This document shows positions 45,992 through 59,356 of a DNA stretch of 64,000 nucleotides, one piece after another; position 1 is the first letter of the stretch, and every line of letters begins with the position of its first letter. Below the pieces are notes generated by a model. The model was not told the origin of the DNA. It saw nothing but the letters and a program-made list of their open reading frames with translations, and made no database searches. The DNA is taken from the NCBI GenBank assembly GCA_028293625.1, contig JAQGOL010000035.1, positions 372,001 through 436,000 of the forward strand. Reading direction: 5' to 3'. The DNA is from Chthoniobacteraceae bacterium (GTDB lineage Bacteria; Verrucomicrobiota; Verrucomicrobiia; Chthoniobacterales; Chthoniobacteraceae). The position numbers and the translations under genes were made by a program.

Positions 45992-48433
45992 TTATCTAAG
46001 CCAGACTTCGACACGGCGGTTTTTGTCCCGGCCCGATTGGGTTTCATTACTGGCCACCGCCGAAGTGGCGCCAAAGCCCGCCACCAAGGCCGGATGAATA
46101 CCTCGCGCAATCAAATGATGCGCTATTCCCTGGGCGCGCCCTTTTGATACTTTGAGGTTGGCCGGACCTGCTCCGTTTCCATCGGTAAATCCGAGTAAAA
46201 GCAATTGCCGGCCATAATAACGCGGCTCGCTCATCATTTGGACAATCCGGTCAAGATCGCGGACTGCTTTGGTATCCAGATCGACGCTGCCTGCGCGAAA
46301 ACGAAAGTTAAGACTTAGCCGATCCGCATTCCTGACAGCGGCCTTATAGTCGGCCGGAGCCGCCGCCGCGACGAGCGGCCTCTGTAAATCGATCGTCTGC
46401 TTTACGAACCCGATCCGTTGCACCATTTCCTGTCCTTCTTCACTGAGGGCAAATTCGACAAACTTCGCCACCCACGCCGATTGCGGCACCGCTGGCGTAT
46501 AAAGAAAAAGACGCCGCGACAGAACGTAATCTTCGGTGGCGACAGTGAATCGGGTGGCGAGAAAAGGAGGCGATCCCGCTTCGGAAACGGCCAGCACTTT
46601 TGTCGTGCCAACCGAGGCAAGTCCGGTAAAGCCAATGCCGCAGGGGTCCGCGGCGACTGCCTTGGACAATGCCGCGCTATCTTCAAAGGACTTCGCGGCC
46701 GGGATCATACGGAGACCTCCCAGAACGAGTGACTTGAAAGTATCGAAGGTGCCCGAGTTGCCGTCACGCGCATAGATCTGGATATGGCCGGGAGAGCCGC
46801 CGACCTGAGCCCAGTCGACGGTGCGCCCTGTGAAAATATCGGCGATCTGTTCCTTTGATAGTGCAGTAAGCGGATTGTCGCGGTGCACGAGGATGGCAAT
46901 ACCATCAAGACCAAGGACGTGTTCGCATTCAGGCGAGTTCATGTCGCCCAGGCCCGCCATGGCACATGCGCGGGCTTCCTCGGCTTTAATCGGGCGCGAT
47001 GACATCCCAATTTCACAACTCTGGCTCGTCAGCCCTTCAAACGCCGTGGTTGACCCGTGTGCGGCAATTTCAATGCGGCCGCGGCCGGTATCGGGAAACG
47101 TGGCCTGAACGACCATCTCTTCGGCATTGATGGAAGGAATCCACTTAATGTCTGTGACTCCTTCCTTTTGCAAAAACTTTTCCATCAACGCCGGAAGCAG
47201 TTTTCCTCCGATTGTGTTGGAGCCATGAACGCGCAGTACAACATTGGCAATTTCCAATGGCGCAGCGCTCTGAGAAGAATCCGGCGTCAGATTCTGCTTC
47301 GACACTCCAGCGGGTTCAGCATTCTCCACGGCCACGACTTTTGGTGTTTCCTTTTCCAAATGAGGCACTGACGCAAGTTCCGGCACCGGGGTTGGAGCGA
47401 AATTTTTCGAGACTTGCTGAGTATCGGAAAGGGTGGGGCGAACTTTCGCGGTCCGGCCATGAAGAAAAGCTGCGGCGGCAATCAATGTGAGCACGCCGAA
47501 GCCGGCTATGACTGCCATTTTAATACCGGGCATTTGTTTCCTGAACAACGGGATCCGCCGAGCTGGAGTGCTTACATTGATTTTGGATTCCGGCATCAGG
47601 GCGGTTTGAAGTGCGCCAAGAGCCTGCATCGCATTCTGGTAGCGATCCGCCGGGTCCCGATTAATCAACTTCATAACCCAATCGCAGACCGTTTCCGGAA
47701 GATCAGGCCGATAGCACGAAAGCGGAATTACTTCATGTTCCAAGTGTGCGGTGATGATCCTTGAAACCTGATTCGCTTCGAAGGGATAGATCCCGGCGAG
47801 TGCGTAGTAAAAAACGCAGCCCAGGGAGTATAGATCACTTCGGTTATCGACCAGATCCGAGGTGAGCTGCTCCGGGGAGATGCAATGAATGGAACCGGTA
47901 ACCGTTCCATCCGTATTGAAGTCCAGATGCGACGGGCGCGTATGAAACTTCGCAATTCCGAAATCCAAAATTTTAACCTGTAACGCGCCGCTTGGCAGCA
48001 TCGAGATCATAAGGTTGGACGGTTTAATATCGCGATGCACAAGTCCCGCATGGTGAGCCGCGAGAAGTCCTTCCAGCGATTGGCTCGCCACTTTCGCGAA
48101 TTCATCGCCAGTCAATACGCCTTTTGGAACGCGCGCTTCGATCGTATCTCCCTGCACGTATTCCATGACGACATATGGCGTGTCGCCATCCAGGCCGATG
48201 TCGTAGACCGCCACAATATTCGAGTGCCGGATGGCGGCGAGGTGCATCGCCTCTTTCCAAGTGCTCTGGATAAGGTCCTCGTGAATGCCGGTGGCCTTCA
48301 ACTTTTTGATTGCCACCGTTCTTTCTAGTTGAGAGTCCCAGGCCGTAAAGACTTCGCCAGCGCCCCCGTGGCCAAGGGCCGAATGGAGCTGGTAGCGTTT
48401 TTCTAACTTCGATAAGGGTGGCGCGGCTTGCAT
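45992..48433 (-). CDS. Ser/Thr kinase - membrane helix - PstS-like binding domain - OmpA domain fusion
   Basis: 813 residues. Kinase (~14-275): ALGHGGAGEVF (P-loop), Lys43 in VAIKK, HRDIKPSN (133-140, Asp135), DFG (157-159) and SPE (186-188). All key residues are present, so it should be active. A single helix (305-325) with Arg/Lys before it keeps the kinase cytosolic. A PstS-like periplasmic binding domain follows (~398-685): GSNTIGGKLL, HGSTTAFEGL, GMSSRPI and RDGNSGTFDTF, the phosphate-contact motifs. The OmpA domain (706-813) has GFTDGNG (Asp751) and SKGRAQ (Arg766), the residues that bind diaminopimelate, and ends with the NRRVEVW motif. The logic is a peptidoglycan-anchored receptor that signals ligand occupancy to a cytosolic kinase. 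A good SD (GGAG) precedes the ATG. Confidence 0.9.
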   Translation of the reverse strand: MQAAPPLSKLEKRYQLHSALGHGGAGEVFTAWDSQLERTVAIKKLKATGIHEDLIQSTWKEAMHLAAIRHSNIVAVYDIGLDGDTPYVVMEYVQGDTIEARVPKGVLTGDEFAKVASQSLEGLLAAHHAGLVHRDIKPSNLMISMLPSGALQVKILDFGIAKFHTRPSHLDFNTDGTVTGSIHCISPEQLTSDLVDNRSDLYSLGCVFYYALAGIYPFEANQVSRIITAHLEHEVIPLSCYRPDLPETVCDWVMKLINRDPADRYQNAMQALGALQTALMPESKINVSTPARRIPLFRKQMPGIKMAVIAGFGVLTLIAAAAFLHGRTAKVRPTLSDTQQVSKNFAPTPVPELASVPHLEKETPKVVAVENAEPAGVSKQNLTPDSSQSAAPLEIANVVLRVHGSNTIGGKLLPALMEKFLQKEGVTDIKWIPSINAEEMVVQATFPDTGRGRIEIAAHGSTTAFEGLTSQSCEIGMSSRPIKAEEARACAMAGLGDMNSPECEHVLGLDGIAILVHRDNPLTALSKEQIADIFTGRTVDWAQVGGSPGHIQIYARDGNSGTFDTFKSLVLGGLRMIPAAKSFEDSAALSKAVAADPCGIGFTGLASVGTTKVLAVSEAGSPPFLATRFTVATEDYVLSRRLFLYTPAVPQSAWVAKFVEFALSEEGQEMVQRIGFVKQTIDLQRPLVAAAAPADYKAAVRNADRLSLNFRFRAGSVDLDTKAVRDLDRIVQMMSEPRYYGRQLLLLGFTDGNGAGPANLKVSKGRAQGIAHHLIARGIHPALVAGFGATSAVASNETQSGRDKNRRVEVWLR

Positions 48434-50393: not shown

Positions 50394-50996
50394 ATGAGCT
50401 CCGAAGAAAATCAGCAGCCACCGCAACCCGATCAAGCGCCGCAACCTGATCAGGGGGCCGGCCGGAATGGCGGGATTGATGAAAGCGGCAATGTCGATCG
50501 CATTCGGAATATCCTTTTTGGATCGCAGATGCGCGATTACGACGGACGCTTTCAACGGCTGGAGGAGAAGCTGGTGCGGGATGCGGCCGAGCTTCGCGTC
50601 GATTTACAGAAACGGATTGAGGGGCTCGAGGAATTTATTAAAAGCGAAGTGGAATCGCTGGCCAACCGTCTCAAGAGCGAGCAGGCCGAACGCTCGCATG
50701 CGTTGGAGAGAGTTGGCCGGGATCTGACTGATACCGCCAAAGGACTGGAATTGAAAATCAGCCGAGTCGACGAGCAGGGGTCCAAGGATACGCGGGAATT
50801 GCGTCAGCAACTGCGCGACCAGCTCAAGGCAATCAGTGCGGAAATCAAGGATCGCCATGACCAGATCAAGGCCGGACTCGATCATGAGGCACAGCAGATC
50901 CGCGGCGCGATGACCGGGCGCGAGTCGCTGGCCGAGATGCTCAGTGAAGTGGCGCTTCGGCTCAAAGGCGAGTTCCGCGTGCCGGGCGCCTCTTAA
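50394..50996 (+). CDS. Coiled-coil protein of the small-GTPase module
   Basis: 200 residues from ATG 50394 with GGGAG upstream. A Pro/Gln-rich disordered head (1-30) is followed by VDRIRNILFGSQMRDYDGRFQRLEEKL and then a long heptad coiled coil to about residue 185, rich in Glu/Arg/Lys. No membrane helix. The R-N-I-L-F-G-S-Q-M-R-D-Y segment looks like a conserved docking motif. It is first in a tight five-gene run (spacings +23, -4, +4, -4). It may be a scaffold that links the GTPase or its membrane partner to other parts; the function is inferred from context. Confidence 0.72.
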   Translation: MSSEENQQPPQPDQAPQPDQGAGRNGGIDESGNVDRIRNILFGSQMRDYDGRFQRLEEKLVRDAAELRVDLQKRIEGLEEFIKSEVESLANRLKSEQAERSHALERVGRDLTDTAKGLELKISRVDEQGSKDTRELRQQLRDQLKAISAEIKDRHDQIKAGLDHEAQQIRGAMTGRESLAEMLSEVALRLKGEFRVPGAS

Positions 50997-51019
50997 AGCA
51001 GTGATCGCCTGCTAATCCG

Positions 51020-53116
51020 GTGGAAGATTTCGAGGAACTTCGCCGCTTGCTGCTGGGCCGGGAGCAGGAACAGATTCGCGACCTTAATAGCCGGATCGAG
51101 GACAAGGAGCGGCGTGTCCGGGATGTCTCGGTAGTGCTGCCGCATGCCGTAAAGTTGAGCCTGGAAAGAAACGGCGAGCTCGACCGTGCGCTGCAGCCGT
51201 CGGTTGAAAATTCGCTGCGGATCGCGATCCAGAAAAAGCCCGAGATTTTCGTCGAGGCGTTTCATCCGATCATCGGGCCGATCGTCCGGCGTTCGATTGC
51301 GGAAAGCCTGCGCGGCTTGCTGCAATCGCTTAATCAGACGCTTGAAAACACGTTCTCCTGGCAGGGCCTTAAATGGCGCTTTGAAGCATTGCGCACAGGT
51401 AAAAGTTTCGGGGAAATCGTCCTGCTCCGAAGCATGGTTTATCGGGTGGAACAGATTTTTCTCATCCACCGCGAAACGAGCCTTTCGCTGCTCTATGTCG
51501 CAAGAGATCCGACCGCTTCAAAAGACTCCGACATGGTTGCCGGCATGCTTAGCGCCATTCAGGATTTTGCGCGCGATTCTTTTGAGGCGGGAGCGGATGC
51601 GGTCCTTGAAGAATTCCGAGTAGGCGAGCTTGAAGTCTGGATTGCGCCTGGCCGCCACGCGTATCTGGCGGCGGTAATCCGGGGGAGCGCGCCGCGTGAT
51701 TTGCGGCTCGCCCTCCAGGAAACCATTGAATCGGTGCATATTTTAAAGGGAGCGGAGCTGGCGCAATTTGAGGGGGATTCCGCGGTTTTTGAAAGTGTGC
51801 GGCCGGAGTTGGAAGCGTGTTTGCGCGCGCAATATCAGCCGGCGGCGTCGAGTCAGAGCCGCCAGATTAAAGCATGGCTCGCCCTGGCCGGAACGGCCAC
51901 CCTGTTGCTTTCCATCGCTTGGATGGCGTGGAAAAGCGATGGACGATGGCGTGATTTTCTCCAGCGGCTCAATGCCGAGCCGGGCCTGGCGGTGACCGCC
52001 AACAAGCACAATTGGTTTCTGAAATCACGCGTCGAGGGATTGCGCGATCCGCTTGCGGTTGATGCCGCGCCACTGGCAGTCGCGGCGGGACTTGATCCGG
52101 CACGTCTCATTTTTCAATGGAAAGAGTATCTCGCACTCGATCCGGTCAGTGTCAGGCGGCGCTTTGAAAAACGGTTTTCCGTGCCGGCAGGGAGCAAGGT
52201 CACATTGAAAAACGGCGTCGTTGAGATTGCGGGTACCGCTCCTTTTGAATGGATCGAACAGCTCCGGCGCGAAGCATTGTTTGTCCCGGGAATCAGCGCG
52301 TTGAGCGAGCGCGATCTGACCCTTTTGTATGATCCCGCGCGGGTGCTTGAAAAATTCCAGGCTGCATTTCCCCTCCCGGCCGGTGTCGTTGCAGACTTCA
52401 ATAGTGGCTCGCTCGCCCTCTCCGGGCGGGCGCCGTATGAATGGGTTGCCGCGGTCCGCGAAGGCGCAAAACGTATCCCTGGCGTCACTGCTATTTCAGA
52501 AAAGGAGCTTGAAGTGGTGTTTGATCCGGCACGCGTATTAAGCCGGTTTGAAGCGCGCTTCGGATTACCTGAAAGCGTGAGCGCCTCTGTCGAAGAAGGT
52601 ATATTGATACTAAGCGGCGAAGCCTCCCATGCCTGGCTGGCGCGGGTTCGGCCCGCGGCCACGCAGATTGCCGGCATCAGCGCGATCAGGGAACAAAGCC
52701 TGGTTGATCTCGACGAGCAGACTTTCCGCCAGTCCAAATCCGTCATTGAAACGGCGCTCATCTATTTTCTTCCCAACAAAGAGAACTTCGCGACTGAAGG
52801 GTTCGTGGCGCTTTCGAGATTGCCTGACGAGATTCGCCGGCTTCAAACCGCGGCCAAACGGGTCGGCGCCACGATCGGGATCGAGATCCGTGGCTCAGCC
52901 GATGCGGTTGGTTCAGAGGCGAAAAATATCGATCTGAGTGAAAGGCGTGCGAAAGCCGTGTTCGATTTCCTGGTCTCCTGCGGATTGGATGCGGCGATGT
53001 TCAAACCGCTCGGCTTGGGCGCGGCGCTGGTGCCGGGAGAAAAAGCAGCCCCTGAACAGGCAAATAGACGGGTTGCCTTTCGTGTGGTCAGTCCGCCATC
53101 ATCAGTCGCGCCATGA
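51020..53116 (+). CDS. Membrane protein with longin/roadblock-like region, BON-like repeats and OmpA domain
   Basis: 698 residues, GTG start. Residues ~1-125 are helical. Residues ~130-245 (VEQIFLIHRETSLSLLYVA, MVAGMLSAIQDFARDSF and VGELEVWIAPGRHAYLAAVIRG) have the order of a longin/roadblock-like fold, known to bind Ras-like GTPases. A membrane helix (285-305) leads to three tandem BON-like repeats (~375-436, 437-503 and 504-566, each with a D-P-x-x-V-x-x-x-F start and a G-x-x-A-x-x-W-x turn) and an OmpA domain (~575-690) with GSADAV and DLSERRAKAV. Thus the cytosolic half can meet the GTPase encoded next, and the periplasmic half can hold peptidoglycan. ATGA overlap with the GTPase gene. 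Confidence 0.8.
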   Translation: MEDFEELRRLLLGREQEQIRDLNSRIEDKERRVRDVSVVLPHAVKLSLERNGELDRALQPSVENSLRIAIQKKPEIFVEAFHPIIGPIVRRSIAESLRGLLQSLNQTLENTFSWQGLKWRFEALRTGKSFGEIVLLRSMVYRVEQIFLIHRETSLSLLYVARDPTASKDSDMVAGMLSAIQDFARDSFEAGADAVLEEFRVGELEVWIAPGRHAYLAAVIRGSAPRDLRLALQETIESVHILKGAELAQFEGDSAVFESVRPELEACLRAQYQPAASSQSRQIKAWLALAGTATLLLSIAWMAWKSDGRWRDFLQRLNAEPGLAVTANKHNWFLKSRVEGLRDPLAVDAAPLAVAAGLDPARLIFQWKEYLALDPVSVRRRFEKRFSVPAGSKVTLKNGVVEIAGTAPFEWIEQLRREALFVPGISALSERDLTLLYDPARVLEKFQAAFPLPAGVVADFNSGSLALSGRAPYEWVAAVREGAKRIPGVTAISEKELEVVFDPARVLSRFEARFGLPESVSASVEEGILILSGEASHAWLARVRPAATQIAGISAIREQSLVDLDEQTFRQSKSVIETALIYFLPNKENFATEGFVALSRLPDEIRRLQTAAKRVGATIGIEIRGSADAVGSEAKNIDLSERRAKAVFDFLVSCGLDAAMFKPLGLGAALVPGEKAAPEQANRRVAFRVVSPPSSVAP

Positions 53117-53616
53117 TCCAAAAAAAGATCTGCATGATTGGGACCTCCGGAGTCGGCAAGACAAGTCTTGTCGCCCGGTTTGTGAGCAGCATTTTCTCGG
53201 ACAAATATCTCACCACGGTGGGAGTAAAGATCGACAAAAAAGTGCTCACCGTTGACGGCACCAATGTGACCCTCGTGCTTTGGGATCTCGCCGGGGATGA
53301 CGATTTCCAACGCCTTCAACTCTCTTACCTGCGCGGAACGGCTGGCTACATCCTCGTGGCCGATGGGACTCGCCAGATCACGCTCGATCAGCTCCTCGAT
53401 ATTCAAGCCCGCGTCATGGAAGCCGTCGGACCGGTTCCCTTTGTGCTTGCGCTCAACAAAGCCGATCTCCAGACGCAATGGGAGATTGGAAAAGAGCGCA
53501 TCGAGCAACTCACCGCCCAAGGCTGGCACATTCTTTTAACCAGCGCAAAAACCGGGGCCGGTGTCGAAGAGGCCTTTTCAGACTTGAGCCGAATGCTGCT
53601 TGCCCCCAAACCGTAA
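53113..53616 (+). CDS. Small Ras-like GTPase (Rup-type)
   Basis: 167 residues. GTSGVGKTS (G1, residues 10-18), TTVGVKI (G2 Thr34/35), WDLAGDDDF (G3, 57-65), NKAD (G4, 115-118) and TSAKT (G5, 143-147) form a complete Ras-like core. The residue after D-x-x-G, Gln61 in Ras, is Asp62 here, so intrinsic hydrolysis is expected to need help from a partner. There is no C-terminal lipidation Cys; membrane contact would come through the coupled longin/OmpA protein. Spacing: 4-base overlap before, 4 bases after. Predicted role: a nucleotide switch in envelope signalling. Confidence 0.92.
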   Translation: MIQKKICMIGTSGVGKTSLVARFVSSIFSDKYLTTVGVKIDKKVLTVDGTNVTLVLWDLAGDDDFQRLQLSYLRGTAGYILVADGTRQITLDQLLDIQARVMEAVGPVPFVLALNKADLQTQWEIGKERIEQLTAQGWHILLTSAKTGAGVEEAFSDLSRMLLAPKP

Positions 53617-53620
53617 AGCC

Positions 53621-54721
53621 ATGCCCGCTCGTGAATCAGCCATTGGCGCAGTATTTGAAACGCTTGGATTTGCGCTTTTCCTCCGTGAAGAGCCGGGCGG
53701 CTTGAAACTGGCAGGGGAAGCGCCGGCGTGGCTGAAAGAGATATGGCCCGGCGCGGCTCAATCCGGCGCGATGCTGGAGGTCTCGGAACTATCGCCTTTT
53801 TTGGAAAATTTTCTTATTGATGCCGGGGAATGCTGGACTGCCGGGGGAACGAGCCGGGTCAAATCGGGGCCATGGATCGAGGGAACAGACCTGGAGCTTG
53901 AAGCGACGGCATTGAGCGTCAATGGCCAGGCGGTCCTGTTGATTGAGCAGCTCGGCAAGGATTTTGAAACTCGAAAGGCCGTGCTGCAAAAAGCACGCGA
54001 GACCGTGATTGCGTATCAACGTCTAAATACCGAGATGCAGAAAAAGGAGATCCTTTTGCATTGCATCGCCGAGGACATGACCGGCGCATTGGGCAACGTC
54101 ATTACTTCCCTTCGCCTGATTGAACTTGAGCACGATCCACTTAAGACCCGGCGGCTTCTTGAGCTGGCAATGCTCGCCACCCAGGAGCAGCAAAACATCA
54201 TTCACCGCGTGCTTGATGTTTTCGCGGACGAGCTGGAAAGCCTTTACGGGCGCGCGGGCAAAAACCAGGCCGACGCGGAAGTGCACGATGTCATGCAACG
54301 CGCCCTTGGTGCCGTTCAATCTGAGTATCAGGAAAAGCGGGTTCGCCTCACGGCCTCAGGCTTTGGCACGTTGCGCGTCGCGGTGGATGCCGGGCATCTG
54401 GAGCGTGTGTTTGTGAACCTGCTTGAAAATGCGCTGCATGCGACCCCGGCTGGTGGCGAGGTCAAGGTGCGCATCGAAGCCGAGGCCGATACGGTTCTCT
54501 TACAATTCGACGATGGCGGCGCCGAGATTCACGAGGAAGTCAGTGAAAAGCTTTTCGCGAAATTTGATTGCTCCGAAGCGCGTCCTCAAGCGACGGCCTT
54601 GCGCCTTCATTTTTGCCGGATCGCCATTGAAAACTGCAACGGTGAGATCGGCCATACTTCCCTTGGAACCGCCGGCAACCGTTTTTGGGTTCGCCTTCCT
54701 GGATTTCACCCCGCGCAATGA
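53621..54721 (+). CDS. Histidine-kinase-like protein with degenerate catalytic motifs
   Basis: 366 residues from ATG 53621 with no membrane helix. A PAS-like N-terminal region (~10-110) is followed by a HisKA-like dimer (~125-210) and a GHKL ATPase fold (~225-360). In the dimer helix the family phrase LLHCIxHDL reads LLHCIAEDM (residues 146-153), so the expected phospho-His is Glu151. In the ATPase, the N-box RVFVNLLENALHATP is good, but the G1 box is DDGGAEI and the G2 box (near 324-330) has no Gly-x-Gly. It is likely a pseudokinase or a scaffold, coupled with the GTPase (4 bases) and the response regulator (4-base overlap). Confidence 0.75.
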   Translation: MPARESAIGAVFETLGFALFLREEPGGLKLAGEAPAWLKEIWPGAAQSGAMLEVSELSPFLENFLIDAGECWTAGGTSRVKSGPWIEGTDLELEATALSVNGQAVLLIEQLGKDFETRKAVLQKARETVIAYQRLNTEMQKKEILLHCIAEDMTGALGNVITSLRLIELEHDPLKTRRLLELAMLATQEQQNIIHRVLDVFADELESLYGRAGKNQADAEVHDVMQRALGAVQSEYQEKRVRLTASGFGTLRVAVDAGHLERVFVNLLENALHATPAGGEVKVRIEAEADTVLLQFDDGGAEIHEEVSEKLFAKFDCSEARPQATALRLHFCRIAIENCNGEIGHTSLGTAGNRFWVRLPGFHPAQ

Positions 54722-56037
54722 AAACAATCGTGCTCATTGAAAACGACGTGCTCACCCGGGCGTTGCTCTCGCAGTGCCTGGCCGGTGAAGGCTGGTGTGT
54801 GATGGAAGCAGACAACGGCGAGGCTGGGCTCGATCTGGTTCAGAAACATCATCCGGCCGTGGTGCTTTGCGACATCCGGACCCCGAAAGGCAACGGATTC
54901 AAAGTCTGCCGTTCGATCCGTGAACAGCCGGCGCTGGAATCAACCCGGGTCATCCTGACCAGTGTCAGCCGCTTTGGGAATGACCGGGACAGCGCTTTCG
55001 GAGCGGGCGCCCATGACTATCTTGTCAAACCGATTCCGCCTGCCGACCTGCTTCGCACCCTGGCGGCCTGCGTCCCAAAAGAACCTGAGCCGACCGAGGA
55101 AACCATTTCTGAAGCCGAGAAACACGCTCCCACGCTTGTCCGGTTCTGGGGCGTGCGCGGCTCGATTCCTACACCAGGCCATCAGACGGCGACTTTTGGC
55201 GGCAACACGTCGTGTGTCGAAGTGCGGGTCGGCGACAATGTCATCATCCTGGATGCCGGCTCGGGTATCCGGCTGTTGGGCCAGTCGCTCATGAAAGAGT
55301 TCCGCGACAAGCCGCTGAACATCACGATGCTGGTGACGCATACCCATTGGGATCATATCCAGGGGTTCCCGTTTTTTATTCCCGCTTACAGTCCGAAGGT
55401 GAGCGTGCGCGTGCTCGGTTATGAAGGCGCGGTGCATGGGTTGCGCGGCGCACTTTTCGAGCAAATGCAAAGCGCGTTTTTTCCCGTGGCGTTGCATCAG
55501 ATGGCGAGCCACGTGACTTTTGAGGAACTCGACGACCTGCAGTTTAAGTTAGGCTCGGTCAGGGTGAGCGCCATTTTTGCCAATCATCCCGGGATCTGTC
55601 TTGGCTACCGGCTTTCAACCCCGGCCGGCGACGTGGTCTACATGCCTGATCACGAGGCGTATGAACGCCATGAGGTTGAACGCCAGAAAGTATCCGGAGA
55701 AACTTCCGAGCAAGGCCTCGATTACGCCCGCCGCCAGGATGAAAAAGTCATTGAATTCATTCGCGGGGCTGACGTGATGATCGCCGATTCTCAATACGAT
55801 GCGGCCGAATATCCCGCACGCCTTGGATGGGGGCATACTTGCGCCGATGATACTGTCCAGAATGCGATCCTGGGTGGAGTAAAGCAGTTGTTCCTGTTCC
55901 ATCACGATCCCGATCATCACGACAAGAAGATCGAGTCGATGGTCGAACGGGCTCAGGAATGGGTGGCTGAACAACATTCGACGTTGAGCGTTGCCGCGGC
56001 GCGTGAAGGAGCCGAATACTTGCTTCAACCACACTGA
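54718..56037 (+). CDS. Response regulator receiver - metallo-beta-lactamase fold hydrolase
   Basis: 439 residues. The REC domain (1-118) has IENDVLTR, phospho-Asp52 in VVLCDIRTP, Thr81 and Lys104, so it should be phosphorylatable. A linker (120-138) leads to an MBL-fold hydrolase: FWGVRGSIPTPG, LDAGSGIRLLG, THTHWDHIQG (His208, His210, Asp212, His213), FANHPG (His290) and VVYMPDHE (Asp311). The fold matches PhnP/CpdA-like phosphodiesterase groups that act on cyclic nucleotides or phosphoesters. Output is thus enzymatic, not DNA-binding. It overlaps the kinase-like gene by ATGA and is followed 4 bases later by a GNAT gene. Confidence 0.88.
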   Translation: MKTIVLIENDVLTRALLSQCLAGEGWCVMEADNGEAGLDLVQKHHPAVVLCDIRTPKGNGFKVCRSIREQPALESTRVILTSVSRFGNDRDSAFGAGAHDYLVKPIPPADLLRTLAACVPKEPEPTEETISEAEKHAPTLVRFWGVRGSIPTPGHQTATFGGNTSCVEVRVGDNVIILDAGSGIRLLGQSLMKEFRDKPLNITMLVTHTHWDHIQGFPFFIPAYSPKVSVRVLGYEGAVHGLRGALFEQMQSAFFPVALHQMASHVTFEELDDLQFKLGSVRVSAIFANHPGICLGYRLSTPAGDVVYMPDHEAYERHEVERQKVSGETSEQGLDYARRQDEKVIEFIRGADVMIADSQYDAAEYPARLGWGHTCADDTVQNAILGGVKQLFLFHHDPDHHDKKIESMVERAQEWVAEQHSTLSVAAAREGAEYLLQPH

Positions 56038-56565: not shown

Positions 56566-58554
56566 CTAATGAATGGGGAGTTCAAAAGGCCGCGACCGGC
56601 GAAGAATGAGCCATTGAGCATGCTCGATTACTGCTTCTCGTCCTACATGCTCCATGACTTCAAGTGAGCGGCGAAGAGGAGAGTCCGGCGCCGAGACGCC
56701 GCCGGGTGACCTTGCCTGATCGAGGTTTTTGTTTGCCCGTGCAAAAACGGCGGCCATGCGGTCAAACTGATTCGCCAGCTCCTCGTGTAGCTTTCGTTCG
56801 CAGTAGGCAAGTAAAAGCCCGCCTGCGACGAGTAGAACTCCGGATCCGATCAGAATTTCGTGAGAAGGATGCCTGGGGGAAAAGAGGTAAATACCCAAAG
56901 CCATCAACCATGCGGCAACGGCCAGACCAAGGCCGGTACGTCTCAACTGGACAGCGGTATGATGATGGCTGGTGACGGCCTTTTTGAAATAGGCCAATTG
57001 TTTCTGAATCCAGTTTTGAGCAGCCAGCGCCACGCGATGGGCACGGTCCGCATCATGGGGCAACTTTTCAAAATAGGTACGCCAGATTTTTGGAGGCGGT
57101 GAGAGGGCGAATACAGATTTGCGCGCCCAGGCCATTTCTGAGCGAAACTGATTTAAATAGGTATCGATCACAGAAGCATCGATGCCGACAAATGCCCACC
57201 AGCAGCGAACGCGAAGGGCCTCGGAAAGGACACGATAATCAAGCCGTCTTTCGTCCAGGCGCAGGAACCAGACCCAAATGACAGTCAGACCGGCGAGTAC
57301 AATGGTAATGAGCGAAGCGGCCAGCCAGCGAGGATCATGAAGGGTTTGATCGCTGCTGATCTCAAAGTGATGGGCGTAGATGTGGAGGAAGAAGGCCGTT
57401 AAAGCGATCGCCGCGAAAAGCCCCATTTCGCACCGGTCCAGACGGCTTTGAAGAATCTGAGAAAGTTTGCCGGTCACGGCCCGGATGCGCACAAGACGAT
57501 CAAAAAGAGGTCCCGGTGACAGGCTTGCCTGATCTTCTCCCAGGAAGGCGGCGACCGCTGAAGTGGCCGTCGGTTCAATTTTTTCCCATTCGGTTGCGAT
57601 GTCGCAGTTAAAATCGTTGATAGCAGCGCAAGTCGCGCGAAATTGAGTCCACTGCCTGCGAATGATGGCTTGGTGATACTCGGGGGATGAGTCATTGAGA
57701 TGTGGAGTGGCCCCCAGCGCGCGCCGCAGGTGTGCTAAAAAGCGCGCGGCCCTTCTATAGGTGTGGCATCGATCCTCCTCCTCGTCGTTCCATACTCCGC
57801 CCGGCAGCTCCACGCGCACGTCGCCGCTCTTTGAATCCAAAGCACATTCTTCGCTGGGCGTGTGAATTATGTAAACAGGACCGCCGATTTCGTCCTCCAT
57901 GTTCAACCGATCACCCTGGGTCAGATCCGGGGGGATACCTTGTAACTGATAACGAACGAATTCCCAAGTGCCCGACGGCTTGCTAAGCCTATTTTCCGGG
58001 TCGGCGTTTCCATCCCAAAGAGCAATGAGGATCTGACAGCGGCGCACGATATATGCACCGGTAGTGGCGTAGCATCTATGGCGAAAATCGCTTGCCTGCT
58101 TACCCTCGTCCAGCGCAGGCCCAGCTTCACGGCTTTCCCTGGGGGCTTCACCTGGAACCGGAACTACAAATGATTCCACGTCGCCTCTGGCCAGCCATTC
58201 GCGCATCTGTTTGGCTGCATTCCGGCCACGCTCTGAGGCATCGAACGAGCTGCTATTGGCGAATTGCTCTTCGGGGAATGGCAATGGTGCGTGGACAGAA
58301 ATATCGAGGTGGGCTGGGGAGCGGATTTCGAGAGCGGCTTGCACCGCGAGTTGATCAGCCCCCTGCGCGAGGGAGGAGAGAACCAGAAGAGGGGTTTGAG
58401 GGCAGAACTCGTGAATCTCGCGATAGACCTTTTTCAAAGCCGCCAGCAGATGGCGCTCGGCGCTTTCGGAGTAGCGACGATGGCCGACAATGCCGATGAC
58501 GAGCGGGACGCGACATTGATGACAGAGAGCGGATAAAGAATTATCGTTCGGCAT
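56566..58554 (-). CDS. SLOG-domain protein with two 2TM (SLATT-like) units
   Basis: 662 residues from ATG 58554 (GTG at 58560 is possible). Residues ~17-200 form a SLOG/Rossmann domain: VIGIVGHRRYS, LLVLSSLAQGADQLAVQ and CQILIALWDGN, the pattern of YspA/TIR-like nucleotide-binding sensors. Then come two helix pairs at ~378-431 and ~541-584; after each pair is a helix such as LDYRVLSEALRVRCWWAF or KLHEELANQFDRMAAVF, as in the SMODS/SLOG-associated 2TM effector (SLATT). In defence systems these open membrane pores on sensing a nucleotide signal. It stands convergent to the GNAT gene and alone. The length of nearly 2 kb suggests a single self-contained sensor-effector. Confidence 0.72.
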   Translation of the reverse strand: MPNDNSLSALCHQCRVPLVIGIVGHRRYSESAERHLLAALKKVYREIHEFCPQTPLLVLSSLAQGADQLAVQAALEIRSPAHLDISVHAPLPFPEEQFANSSSFDASERGRNAAKQMREWLARGDVESFVVPVPGEAPRESREAGPALDEGKQASDFRHRCYATTGAYIVRRCQILIALWDGNADPENRLSKPSGTWEFVRYQLQGIPPDLTQGDRLNMEDEIGGPVYIIHTPSEECALDSKSGDVRVELPGGVWNDEEEDRCHTYRRAARFLAHLRRALGATPHLNDSSPEYHQAIIRRQWTQFRATCAAINDFNCDIATEWEKIEPTATSAVAAFLGEDQASLSPGPLFDRLVRIRAVTGKLSQILQSRLDRCEMGLFAAIALTAFFLHIYAHHFEISSDQTLHDPRWLAASLITIVLAGLTVIWVWFLRLDERRLDYRVLSEALRVRCWWAFVGIDASVIDTYLNQFRSEMAWARKSVFALSPPPKIWRTYFEKLPHDADRAHRVALAAQNWIQKQLAYFKKAVTSHHHTAVQLRRTGLGLAVAAWLMALGIYLFSPRHPSHEILIGSGVLLVAGGLLLAYCERKLHEELANQFDRMAAVFARANKNLDQARSPGGVSAPDSPLRRSLEVMEHVGREAVIEHAQWLILRRSRPFELPIH

Positions 58555-59356
58555 GGACACGCAATACTGATTGAAAACGTCTGTAGGTAGGAATCCTCAG
58601 TAAAATAGGTCAAAATTTCCGACCATATGCATAAAAACAGTTCACTAAAGAAAACGCGAGCTGTGTTATAGCTAATTTCCAATCATGATGCATTTAGCTG
58701 ACATTCAAGTTTGCATCTCGGATATTCATGCGGACGTTTTGGGGTTAGCGCGCCGATAAGATTGGCCCTTGAAAGAAGGGTGGCGTCCTTCAAGAGGTTG
58801 AATTGGGGCCGCTGCTGTAGCAGTCAGGCACGTAGTCTGGAAAAGCCGTTTCGGAATCAAATCCTTGATCGCCGCCTTTTCACCCCCGCTCACGAACGCG
58901 CCTGAGCAACAACTTGCCGGTGCTTACTGTCCAGTAGCGACGCGCAACCTCTCAACGACAAGCCTGTCGGGAGTGGTCAACGGCTTCACGAAACCGGCGC
59001 AGGCCCAGCGAATGAAAAGCTTTGATTGTTCGCCCTGCGACTTCAGAGCGATACAGCCTGCGCCACGCTCTATTGGCCTCTCTATTACGGTGGTGGCTCG
59101 GCACACCGTTCGCATCCCTTCTGATTTAGTGCGCGCATTCCAAATGCCGGCTCCTCCTCCTCCTCTTTACCTCAGGAGGGGCCGCGGGCGTTGCCGGCTG
59201 CGCGCCCGGGCAATCAAAGAGAGCTAATCTAACTTCACGGAGGGGATAAACTCGAATACAGATCCACACTTTCTGGCAAGCGTGTGGCTGCTTGATAAAG
59301 CCGCGCAGCTTCATCTTCCCGCGCCGGCTTAAGAAGCTGACAGCTGTCGAAGCGGT
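58555..59356. other. About 800 bases without a convincing gene
   Basis: Between the SLOG-type gene and the small basic protein gene I see no reading frame with protein-like sequence; short frames on both strands are low-complexity or Pro/Arg/Ala-rich. The first ~130 bases (58560-58690) are AT-richer than the surroundings and probably contain the promoter of the SLOG gene. No tRNA, hairpin terminator or insertion-sequence end was recognised. It might hold an eroded gene or a small RNA. Confidence 0.5.

Follow-up and report, generated by a model that had tools for sequence, protein, structure and literature searches.

A verrucomicrobial Group 1 Rup GTPase operon with a predicted longin domain in its membrane protein and a degenerate kinase as its output

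A five-gene operon on the forward strand of the window (the whole 64,000-nucleotide stretch of DNA analyzed here, in which all coordinates are given) is, by its gene content and motifs, a Group 1 Rup GTPase system, a kind already described (PMC4316618). New here are the predicted longin fold of its membrane protein, the near-perfect co-occurrence of that protein with the GTPase, residue Q123 of the output protein as the sole invariant column among the 28 Rup outputs aligned, and a variant of Rup in which a pseudokinase is joined by a receiver-hydrolase (REC-MBL) protein. The explanation we favor, and hold to be reasonably probable when taken as one whole, is that the GTPase is loaded by a longin protein anchored to the wall and in turn drives the pseudokinase-hydrolase output.

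Results

The five genes (Table 1) follow one another at intervals of +23, -4, +4 and -4 bases, and recomputing these gaps gave the same values as an earlier note on this DNA. That note's calls of a Ras-like GTPase, of a transmembrane partner able to reach peptidoglycan (a single TM helix and an OmpA domain), and of a receiver joined to a hydrolase likewise held, per the profile matches listed in Table 1. Here, the gene set and order, co-occurrence, and losses and retentions of motifs are read from sequence, and the longin and PAS-like folds come from predicted structure only.

Table 1. Features of the operon, with positions in the window.
Feature	Position	Strand	Remarks
Gene 1, coiled-coil protein, 200 aa	50394..50996	+	cytosolic
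Gene 2, membrane protein, 698 aa, GTG start	51020..53116	+	
Gene 2, predicted longin domain, residues 140-275	51437..51844	+	AlphaFold2 model
Gene 2, DSDMVAGMLSAI motif of first longin helix, residues 169-180	51524..51559	+	domain's most conserved stretch
Gene 2, single TM helix, residues 285-304	51872..51931	+	hydropathy maximum at residue 285
Gene 2, three BON-like repeats, residues ~379-570	52154..52729	+	alignment repeat units
Gene 2, OmpA-like domain, residues 574-690	52739..53089	+	PF00691 E=7.7e-9
Gene 3, Group 1 Rup (Rab-like) small GTPase, 167 aa	53113..53616	+	Ras PF00071 E=3.6e-32
Gene 3, G3 motif DLAGD	53284..53298	+	Asp replaces catalytic Gln of Ras/Rab
Gene 4, kinase-like output protein, 366 aa	53621..54721	+	
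Gene 4, Q123 codon	53987..53989	+	helix after PAS-like domain
Gene 4, H-box, A150 replacing phosphoacceptor His	54068..54070	+	alignment
Gene 5, REC-MBL, 439 aa	54718..56037	+	Response_reg PF00072 E=2.9e-21, Lactamase_B_2 PF12706 E=1.4e-14
Gene 5, receiver phosphoacceptor Asp codon	54871..54873	+	D53, alignment numbering
Gene 5, HTHWDH metal-binding motif of hydrolase	55339..55356	+	invariant in 7 sequences

Loci were compared using tblastn and profile searches. The five-gene order is identical in six further Chthoniobacterales genomes (L006-L011; n = 7 including the window), and none of the window's neighboring genes had a match around those six operons within the 8 kb or less per side that the contigs allowed. 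Because the order is kept in six other genomes with differing surroundings, the five-gene set is unlikely to be a product of chance. A loose cluster of unrelated signaling genes, assembled by chance, would fit the patchy distribution of the operon among the sampled genomes, its absence from every other sampled genome in the genus or family to which the window belongs, and the wide occurrence of REC-MBL proteins without the GTPase. We nevertheless find such a cluster scarcely credible, given the order kept in 7 genomes with different flanks and a GTPase/longin pairing that is near-perfect in two phyla and on plasmids; for genes 1-4, chance clustering is refuted by this conservation.

Counted per genome, the cyanobacteria comprise 19 genomes with both the GTPase and the longin protein, 1 with the GTPase only, 0 with the longin protein only, and 126 with neither (Fisher p = 6e-23). 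The corresponding Chthoniobacterales counts are 11, 0, 1, and 201 (p = 1.5e-17), among 72,556 plasmids the 4 that carry the GTPase are also the 4 that carry the longin protein, and the two genes are adjacent in 17 of the 20 cyanobacterial loci. By these counts, the GTPase hardly ever occurs without the longin/OmpA protein, or that protein without the GTPase. In three genomes (f5), a GTPase-kinase-REC-MBL set lies apart from a coiled coil-longin-GTPase set and both sets have a GTPase of their own, so a single GTPase is not necessarily shared by the two ends of the pathway. The idea that all five partners are conserved together thus stands for the near-obligate GTPase/longin-OmpA pair and, usually, the coiled coil, but not for the output, which is exchangeable, or for REC-MBL, which mostly occurs without the GTPase.

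In 15 of the 20 Rup loci of cyanobacteria, a homologue of the coiled-coil gene 1 lies upstream of the longin/OmpA gene, and another is present on pWSM1497 of Mesorhizobium sp. WSM1497 (E=1.5e-28), where the plasmid operon runs coiled coil, OmpA, "Rab family GTPase", cyclase. Alignment of the 7 Chthoniobacterales sequences shows a conserved motif, VDRIR.ILFG.QMR.YD.RF, and a conserved C-terminal tail, MTGRE.LAEMLSEVALRLK. A motif that by eye seemed common to gene 1 and the N-terminus of gene 2 (L..LLFG.E...) was discarded at an hhalign probability of 0.1%.

The product of gene 3 has its nearest solved sequences in Rab2/Rab8 and, with its 167 aa and G1-G5 motifs, belongs among the small (under 240 aa) Ras-superfamily GTPases. 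In an alignment of 42 GTPase homologues the G1, G4, and G5 motifs are intact, and the G3 Gln is found in just 5, though the outputs of these five may carry the invariant Gln as well.

Gene 2 encodes a helical N-terminus, a predicted longin domain, one TM helix, three BON-like repeats (most relatives have two), and an OmpA-like peptidoglycan-binding domain that keeps D628 and R643, both invariant in 8 sequences. The earlier call of BON repeats is weak in the window protein itself (E=0.0067, below the cut-off) and firmer in the homologue L089 (E=1.6e-9, above the cut-off). The longin call likewise held as a predicted fold and lacked support at the level of sequence in the window protein: no Pfam profile for longin matched the window copy, the best such match being Fuz_longin_1 (E=0.045) in 2 of 28 members, and a profile search of the domain against the PDB gave no relevant match. 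The AlphaFold2 model, per its order of elements, follows the longin fold over residues 142-272, with two strands (142-150, 156-161), a helix (164-187), three strands (198-201, 204-210, 214-221), and two helices (226-248, 254-272); its pLDDT is mostly 89-97, falling to ~70-78 at the first helix and its surroundings. The cytosolic domain of gene 2 is accordingly described here as a predicted longin domain. Foldseek retrieved the Mon1-Ccz1/Ypt7 complex as the best match to the model (E=5.1e-5), the nearest solved folds include VAMP7, Sec22b, Mon1-Ccz1, TRAPP, and Fuzzy-Inturned, and VIA-align superposed the model on the VAMP7 longin at 2.1 A over 118 residues (Z 14.7). Longin domains are of the kind that activates Rab switches in human cells. 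The core of the DSDMVAGMLSAI helix, (M/A)L(T/S)A(I/L/M)..F, is kept in 28 of 28 sequences and is lost in G522, the sole relic of the longin protein in a Rup-less genome, which suggests this helix as a candidate GTPase-binding face.

The kinase-like gene 4 consists of an N-terminal domain with a predicted PAS-like fold, a signaling helix, and degenerate DHp and ATPase domains. Across 28 Rup outputs of five classes, no column other than that of Q123 is invariant (28/28); a Gln equivalent to it is also present in the Mesorhizobium cyclase, and Q123 matches the invariant output Gln of PMC4316618, with the position compared by that paper's text. Q123 sits in the coiled-coil signaling helix, outside the PAS-like core, and a purely structural role for this position is also possible.

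That location enters into an alternative which we think rather unlikely, in which the longin protein acts not as a GEF but as a GAP or passive tether, binding the GTP form as MglB does, with the output being only an effector and its invariant Gln structural. Longin and roadblock domains have a common fold and a common mode of GTPase binding, and MglB is reportedly a GAP that also has GEF activity (PMC3521125; PMC10933270). Roadblock structures, too, match the gene 2 model, at Z up to 10.9 over 102 residues. Against it, the model shows the topology of a longin, with its pair of C-terminal helices, and can be aligned to longins over 118-134 residues versus ~102 to roadblocks. Moreover, few of the GTPases have a G3 Gln, and yet a Gln stays invariant in outputs that are otherwise unrelated to one another.

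The earlier description of gene 4 as a degenerate two-component sensor was borne out. In the window, L006-L011, and L045 (8/8 of the clade), Ala or Ser takes the place of the H-box His, the G2 box (GLGL) has disappeared, and the G1 box is altered; the boxes are intact in sister loci, and the His is present in L046-L049 and in cyanobacterial L062/L063. With Ala at the His position and no G2 box, the window copy lacks these hallmarks of an active histidine kinase. Were gene 4 still a working kinase, with its phosphoacceptor shifted or ATP bound in an unusual way, genes 4 and 5 would form an ordinary two-component pair; this would account for the HATPase_c match of the window copy (E=1.8e-14), its retained N-box residues, and the Asp and Lys kept in the gene 5 receiver. 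We consider this improbable in view of the losses throughout the clade, to which L010 adds the N-box Asn, and of the ATPase part being the fastest-evolving region of gene 4 (mean identity 42%, versus 75% for the helical coil/DHp part, the best conserved). The gene as a whole has a dN/dS of 0.11-0.18 between close relatives and, by this measure, is under purifying selection despite the loss of its His and ATP-box motifs. In sister loci, an apparently active kinase still lies beside the same REC-MBL, so the kinase/REC-MBL pair is ancestral.

The active sites of both halves of gene 5 are apparently intact, as judged from their motifs. The receiver has D53 and K105 (alignment numbering) invariant in 7 sequences, with one acidic-pocket residue being Asn or Ser, and the hydrolase carries the HxHxDH metal motif of RNase Z and metallo-hydrolases; its closest solved sequence is an RNase Z, at E=0.0068 only. 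REC-MBL proteins occur in 115 of 213 Chthoniobacterales genomes, mostly without a Rup GTPase, which rules out REC-MBL as a Rup-specific partner. The 11 copies that are Rup-linked or in Rup genomes score highest, at 590 bits or more versus 508 or less for the others. Elsewhere, Rup outputs fall into the classes of histidine kinase, hybrid kinase, nucleotide cyclase, GGDEF, and sigma-54 activator. The claim that the output is enzymatic and not transcriptional is therefore good for the window's clade and fails for the deep Verrucomicrobiota copies, which end in sigma-54 activators.

Discussion

In the mechanism we propose, gene 2 would cross the inner membrane once, placing its BON-like repeats and OmpA domain in the periplasm, able to hold peptidoglycan, and its longin domain in the cytosol as the platform for GTPase binding. 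The longin domain most likely loads the GTPase with GTP upon a change in the envelope, by analogy with Mon1-Ccz1, TRAPP, and Fuzzy-Inturned, and gene 1 may serve as a coiled-coil scaffold or tether of the GTPase/longin complex. The GTP-bound GTPase would then engage the PAS-like domain and signaling helix of gene 4, where Q123 probably supplies the catalytic Gln absent from the GTPase; in that case, the output would serve as GAP as well as effector, giving a built-in timer. As gene 4 appears unable to transfer phosphate by the usual route, it would act as an allosteric scaffold on gene 5, and the final output would be hydrolysis of a substrate by the metallo-hydrolase. We infer the direction of the signal, the GEF, GAP, and scaffold roles, and the substrate; the periplasm-to-cytosol logic of the earlier note is counted as supported.

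A broader proposal, which we offer tentatively and would not yet bet on, is that bacteria (Cyanobacteria, Verrucomicrobiota, Alphaproteobacteria) have a true Rab-longin pair, with an obligate membrane-anchored longin exchange factor, coupling to the cell wall, and exchangeable outputs doubling as Gln-supplying GAPs. If this is true, the Rab/longin partnership of eukaryotic traffic is matched in bacteria and may have come from them. The predicted fold bears on the origin of that pairing, the roadblock/longin families being "thought to be of archaeal origin" (PMC10933270). It also offers a direct hypothesis for a domain left "unknown" for 12 years, that of a Rab-type GTPase with a Rab-type exchange factor, and provides the first predicted regulator for the Rup family. 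The pseudokinase/REC-MBL variant presents a kinase that apparently lost catalysis inside a GTPase pathway and yet stays under selection.

Group 1 Rup neighborhoods were described by Wuichet and Sogaard-Andersen in 2014, when no member had been characterized experimentally, as a Ras-like GTPase without the usual G3 Gln, a coiled-coil gene, a protein with an unknown domain, TM, and OmpA parts, and an output with an invariant N-terminal Gln (PMC4316618). The window operon shows all of these, with a small GTPase, no coupled MglB, and the Gln in its fourth-gene output; the suggestion that the system is undescribed is thus overtaken by neighborhoods in print since 2014. Our literature search, which reached few subscription journals, found no Rup paper later than 2014, none on bacterial longins and, in the published papers searched, no binding, exchange, or hydrolysis by these proteins. 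The operon differs from the systems of PMC4316618 in being verrucomicrobial (Verrucomicrobia are absent from that paper's Rup list and mentioned once, under MglA), in the predicted longin fold of the membrane-protein domain left unknown there, and in its pseudokinase output and fifth gene, REC-MBL; sigma-54 activators and nucleotide cyclases are output classes beyond those of that paper.

The longin-type Rab exchange factors Mon1-Ccz1, TRAPP, and Fuzzy-Inturned resemble gene 2 in placing a longin fold (predicted in gene 2) beside a Rab-like GTPase. In contrast to them, gene 2 is bacterial and carries its TM, BON-like, and OmpA parts on the same chain as the predicted longin fold, and its sequence similarity to them is near background. 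MglA/MglB and the actinobacterial conservons (Cvn), like the window operon, combine a Ras-like GTPase, a roadblock/longin-class protein, and two-component parts. A separate MglA/MglB-like locus is present in the same genome, with roadblock genes at C39:89858-91133, ~0.33 Mb from the operon. A domain search of the operon's five proteins found no roadblock (MglB) gene, and in this the operon differs from MglA/MglB and Cvn, as it does in having a Rab-like GTPase with a G3 Asp. Compared with MglB, gene 2 is of predicted longin type, membrane-anchored, and predicted to bind the wall.

A conserved five-gene operon

The five gene positions proposed in the earlier note were reproduced, as were the spacings of +23, -4, +4 and -4 bases between genes 1-5, and the genes form a real and conserved operon whose GC content (0.574) is like that of the window (0.567). 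Gene 2 carries an OmpA domain (Pfam, E=7.7e-9), and no curated Pfam family covers the coiled coil of gene 1 or residues 1-480 of gene 2.

Genes of the operon, with window positions and Pfam matches
Gene	Product	Position	Strand	Pfam match
1	Coiled coil	50394-50996	+	
2	Membrane protein	51020-53116	+	
3	GTPase	53113-53616	+	Ras, E=3.6e-32
4	Kinase-like	53621-54721	+	HATPase_c, E=1.8e-14
5	REC-MBL	54718-56037	+	Response_reg, E=2.9e-21; Lactamase_B_2, E=1.4e-14

The same set of five genes, in unchanged order, occurs in six more genomes (loci L006-L011; labelled Spartobacteria, Chthoniobacterales or Verrucomicrobia), with 66-72% identity for both the GTPase and REC-MBL. None of the window's flanking genes was found in these six loci, which marks the five genes as the unit. 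Genes 2-5 also stand at a contig end in a seventh locus, L045. The operon is patchy: the GTPase is found in 11 of 213 genomes sampled from the window's order, the window's genome being its sole bearer in its genus and family, in counts that leave out weaker matches (E around 1e-10) within proteins of 750-1474 aa.

Near the operon, a single protein at 45992-48433 (-) joins a Ser/Thr protein kinase to a periplasmic substrate-binding-like domain (PBP_like_2) and a C-terminal OmpA domain, another envelope-to-cytosol signalling design. The window also encodes, at 56566-58560 (-), a protein of 664 aa that appears to have TM helices and carries a VIGIVGHRRYSESAERHL stretch at its N-terminus. Outside the window, the same genome has a separate MglA/MglB-like locus (G000:C39:89858-91133), in which two roadblock matches (PF03259) flank an Arf/MglA-type GTPase match at 90241-90771.

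The GTPase and the membrane protein

Co-occurrence was scored per genome with profiles of the GTPase and of the cytosolic part of gene 2. In the cyanobacterial sample, 19 genomes had both, one the GTPase only, none the membrane protein only and 126 neither (Fisher p = 6e-23); in the window's order the corresponding counts were 11, 0, 1 and 201 (Fisher p = 1.5e-17), and both p values overstate the co-occurrence because related genomes are not independent. On plasmids, both proteins match the same 4 of 72,556 records (two Rhizobium, one Mesorhizobium, one Nostoc). Of 20 cyanobacterial loci, 17 have the two genes side by side, and in 15 the coiled-coil gene precedes them. The sole membrane-protein copy in a GTPase-free genome (L116, G522:C97:14572-15117) is truncated at its N-terminal end, and the first-helix motif that is conserved elsewhere (DSDMVAGML) is lost, with DSALVEKTV in its place; this longin/OmpA gene is possibly a decaying relic.

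The cytosolic part of gene 2 was modelled by AlphaFold2 from a 28-sequence alignment. Residues 142-272 are predicted to be ordered strand-strand-helix-strand-strand-strand-helix-helix, with pLDDT mostly 89-97 but falling to about 70-78 near the first helix; the prediction for the helical N-terminus is uncertain (mean pLDDT 76.7 over the whole modelled stretch). The relevant structure-search matches were longin- or roadblock-fold proteins. Foldseek placed Mon1-Ccz1 with Ypt7 (E=5.1e-5), adaptor sigma subunits and TRAPP at the top, and VIA-align matched the VAMP7 longin (Z 14.7, 2.1 A over 118 residues), Sec22b (Z 14.1), Fuzzy-Inturned with Rab23 (Z 14.1) and Mon1-Ccz1 (Z 11.9), the best roadblock match reaching Z 10.9 over 102 residues. 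The domain is predicted to have a longin fold, a shared fold not being proof of function. Sequence profiles did not detect a longin identity; that they miss this fold would explain why the domain was earlier called unknown.

Exchangeable outputs and an invariant glutamine

The expectation that all partners would be conserved together was borne out for the GTPase and membrane protein, but not for the gene 3' of the GTPase, which is exchangeable between loci. Cyanobacterial outputs are a histidine kinase, hybrid kinase, kinase-receiver-Hpt, adenylate/guanylate cyclase or GGDEF protein, and the Mesorhizobium output is a cyclase. In three deep Verrucomicrobiota loci (L053-L055), a sigma-54 activator follows the GTPase, which is of the Ras-like class Rup; therefore, some Rup systems probably control transcription, and the earlier claim of an output not directed to transcription would not hold for these loci, while it is supported for the window's REC-MBL hydrolase. 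The passages of the 2014 Rup paper (PMC4316618) consulted here do not name this output class.

The N-terminal region common to the outputs has a predicted PAS-like fold (mean pLDDT 89), and PAS structures top its match list with moderate scores (Z up to 8.9, Foldseek E about 5e-3). Q123 of the window's gene 4, located at the start of a long signalling helix in the predicted model, is the only invariant column in an alignment of 28 such regions, and the Mesorhizobium cyclase also retains it. The exceptions are L096 and L098, where the GTPase is followed by a receiver-kinase gene that lacks this region. Only 5 of 42 GTPases have a glutamine directly after DxxG.

In two cyanobacteria, an ORF of 132-133 aa with no Pfam match lies directly 3' of the GTPase (L086:7294-7692, L087:8452-8853). 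On a Mesorhizobium sp. WSM1497 plasmid (L139, 2252-7569), all four genes of a Rup operon are present, the output being a nucleotide cyclase; the annotations include 'Rab family GTPase' and 'OmpA family protein', and the operon would make a tractable model.

The pseudokinase and REC-MBL variant

Across the window's clade (8 sequences), gene 4 has Ala or Ser in place of the H-box His, has lost the GLGL box and has an altered G1 box; all three are intact in the sister loci L046-L049 and cyanobacterial L062 and L063. Among close relatives, dN/dS is 0.11-0.18 for gene 4 and, where it could be computed, 0.04-0.08 in the GTPase and 0.06-0.07 in REC-MBL; mean identity within gene 4 is highest in the coil/DHp region (75%, versus 42% in the ATPase region). 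The motif losses, the dN/dS of gene 4 and the kept coil/DHp region together mark gene 4 as a conserved pseudokinase. In gene 5, the receiver Asp and Lys and the hydrolase HTHWDH motif are all invariant.

Three sister genomes split the parts over two loci, with GTPase-kinase-REC-MBL at one and coiled coil-longin protein-GTPase at the other (in one of these genomes, L048, the contig stops short of REC-MBL, found on a different contig). This suggests a module in two halves, input and output, either of which can bear its own GTPase.

The analysis shows the gene set, the motifs, the pattern of co-occurrence and the predicted folds; beyond these, we infer the following as the best reading of the mechanism. 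Wall-bound gene 2 would sense, or be held by, peptidoglycan, and its longin domain, most likely a GEF, would control the nucleotide state of the GTPase. The GTPase would act upon the PAS-like/helix part of gene 4, whose Q123 would complete GTP hydrolysis, and gene 4 may signal to the REC-MBL hydrolase by allosteric relay.

Comparison with Group 1 Rup systems

The earlier note took this to be a possibly undescribed system; the operon type was already recognised in 2014, when Wuichet and Sogaard-Andersen described the Group 1 Rup GTPases (PMC4316618). According to the available text of that paper, these GTPases lack their own G3 glutamine, and their neighbours are a coiled-coil gene and a protein with an unknown domain, a TM helix and OmpA; the output, GGDEF/EAL or a histidine kinase, has an invariant glutamine in its N-terminal region. 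In the same text, no member had been experimentally characterised as of 2014, and Verrucomicrobia are absent from the Rup list, the phylum being named once, under MglA. If the fold prediction is right, this system pairs a Rab-like GTPase of bacteria with a longin partner, a combination reported in none of the papers searched. All the Group 1 features in the available 2014 description are present in the window operon; what is new here is a verrucomicrobial variant with a pseudokinase and REC-MBL.
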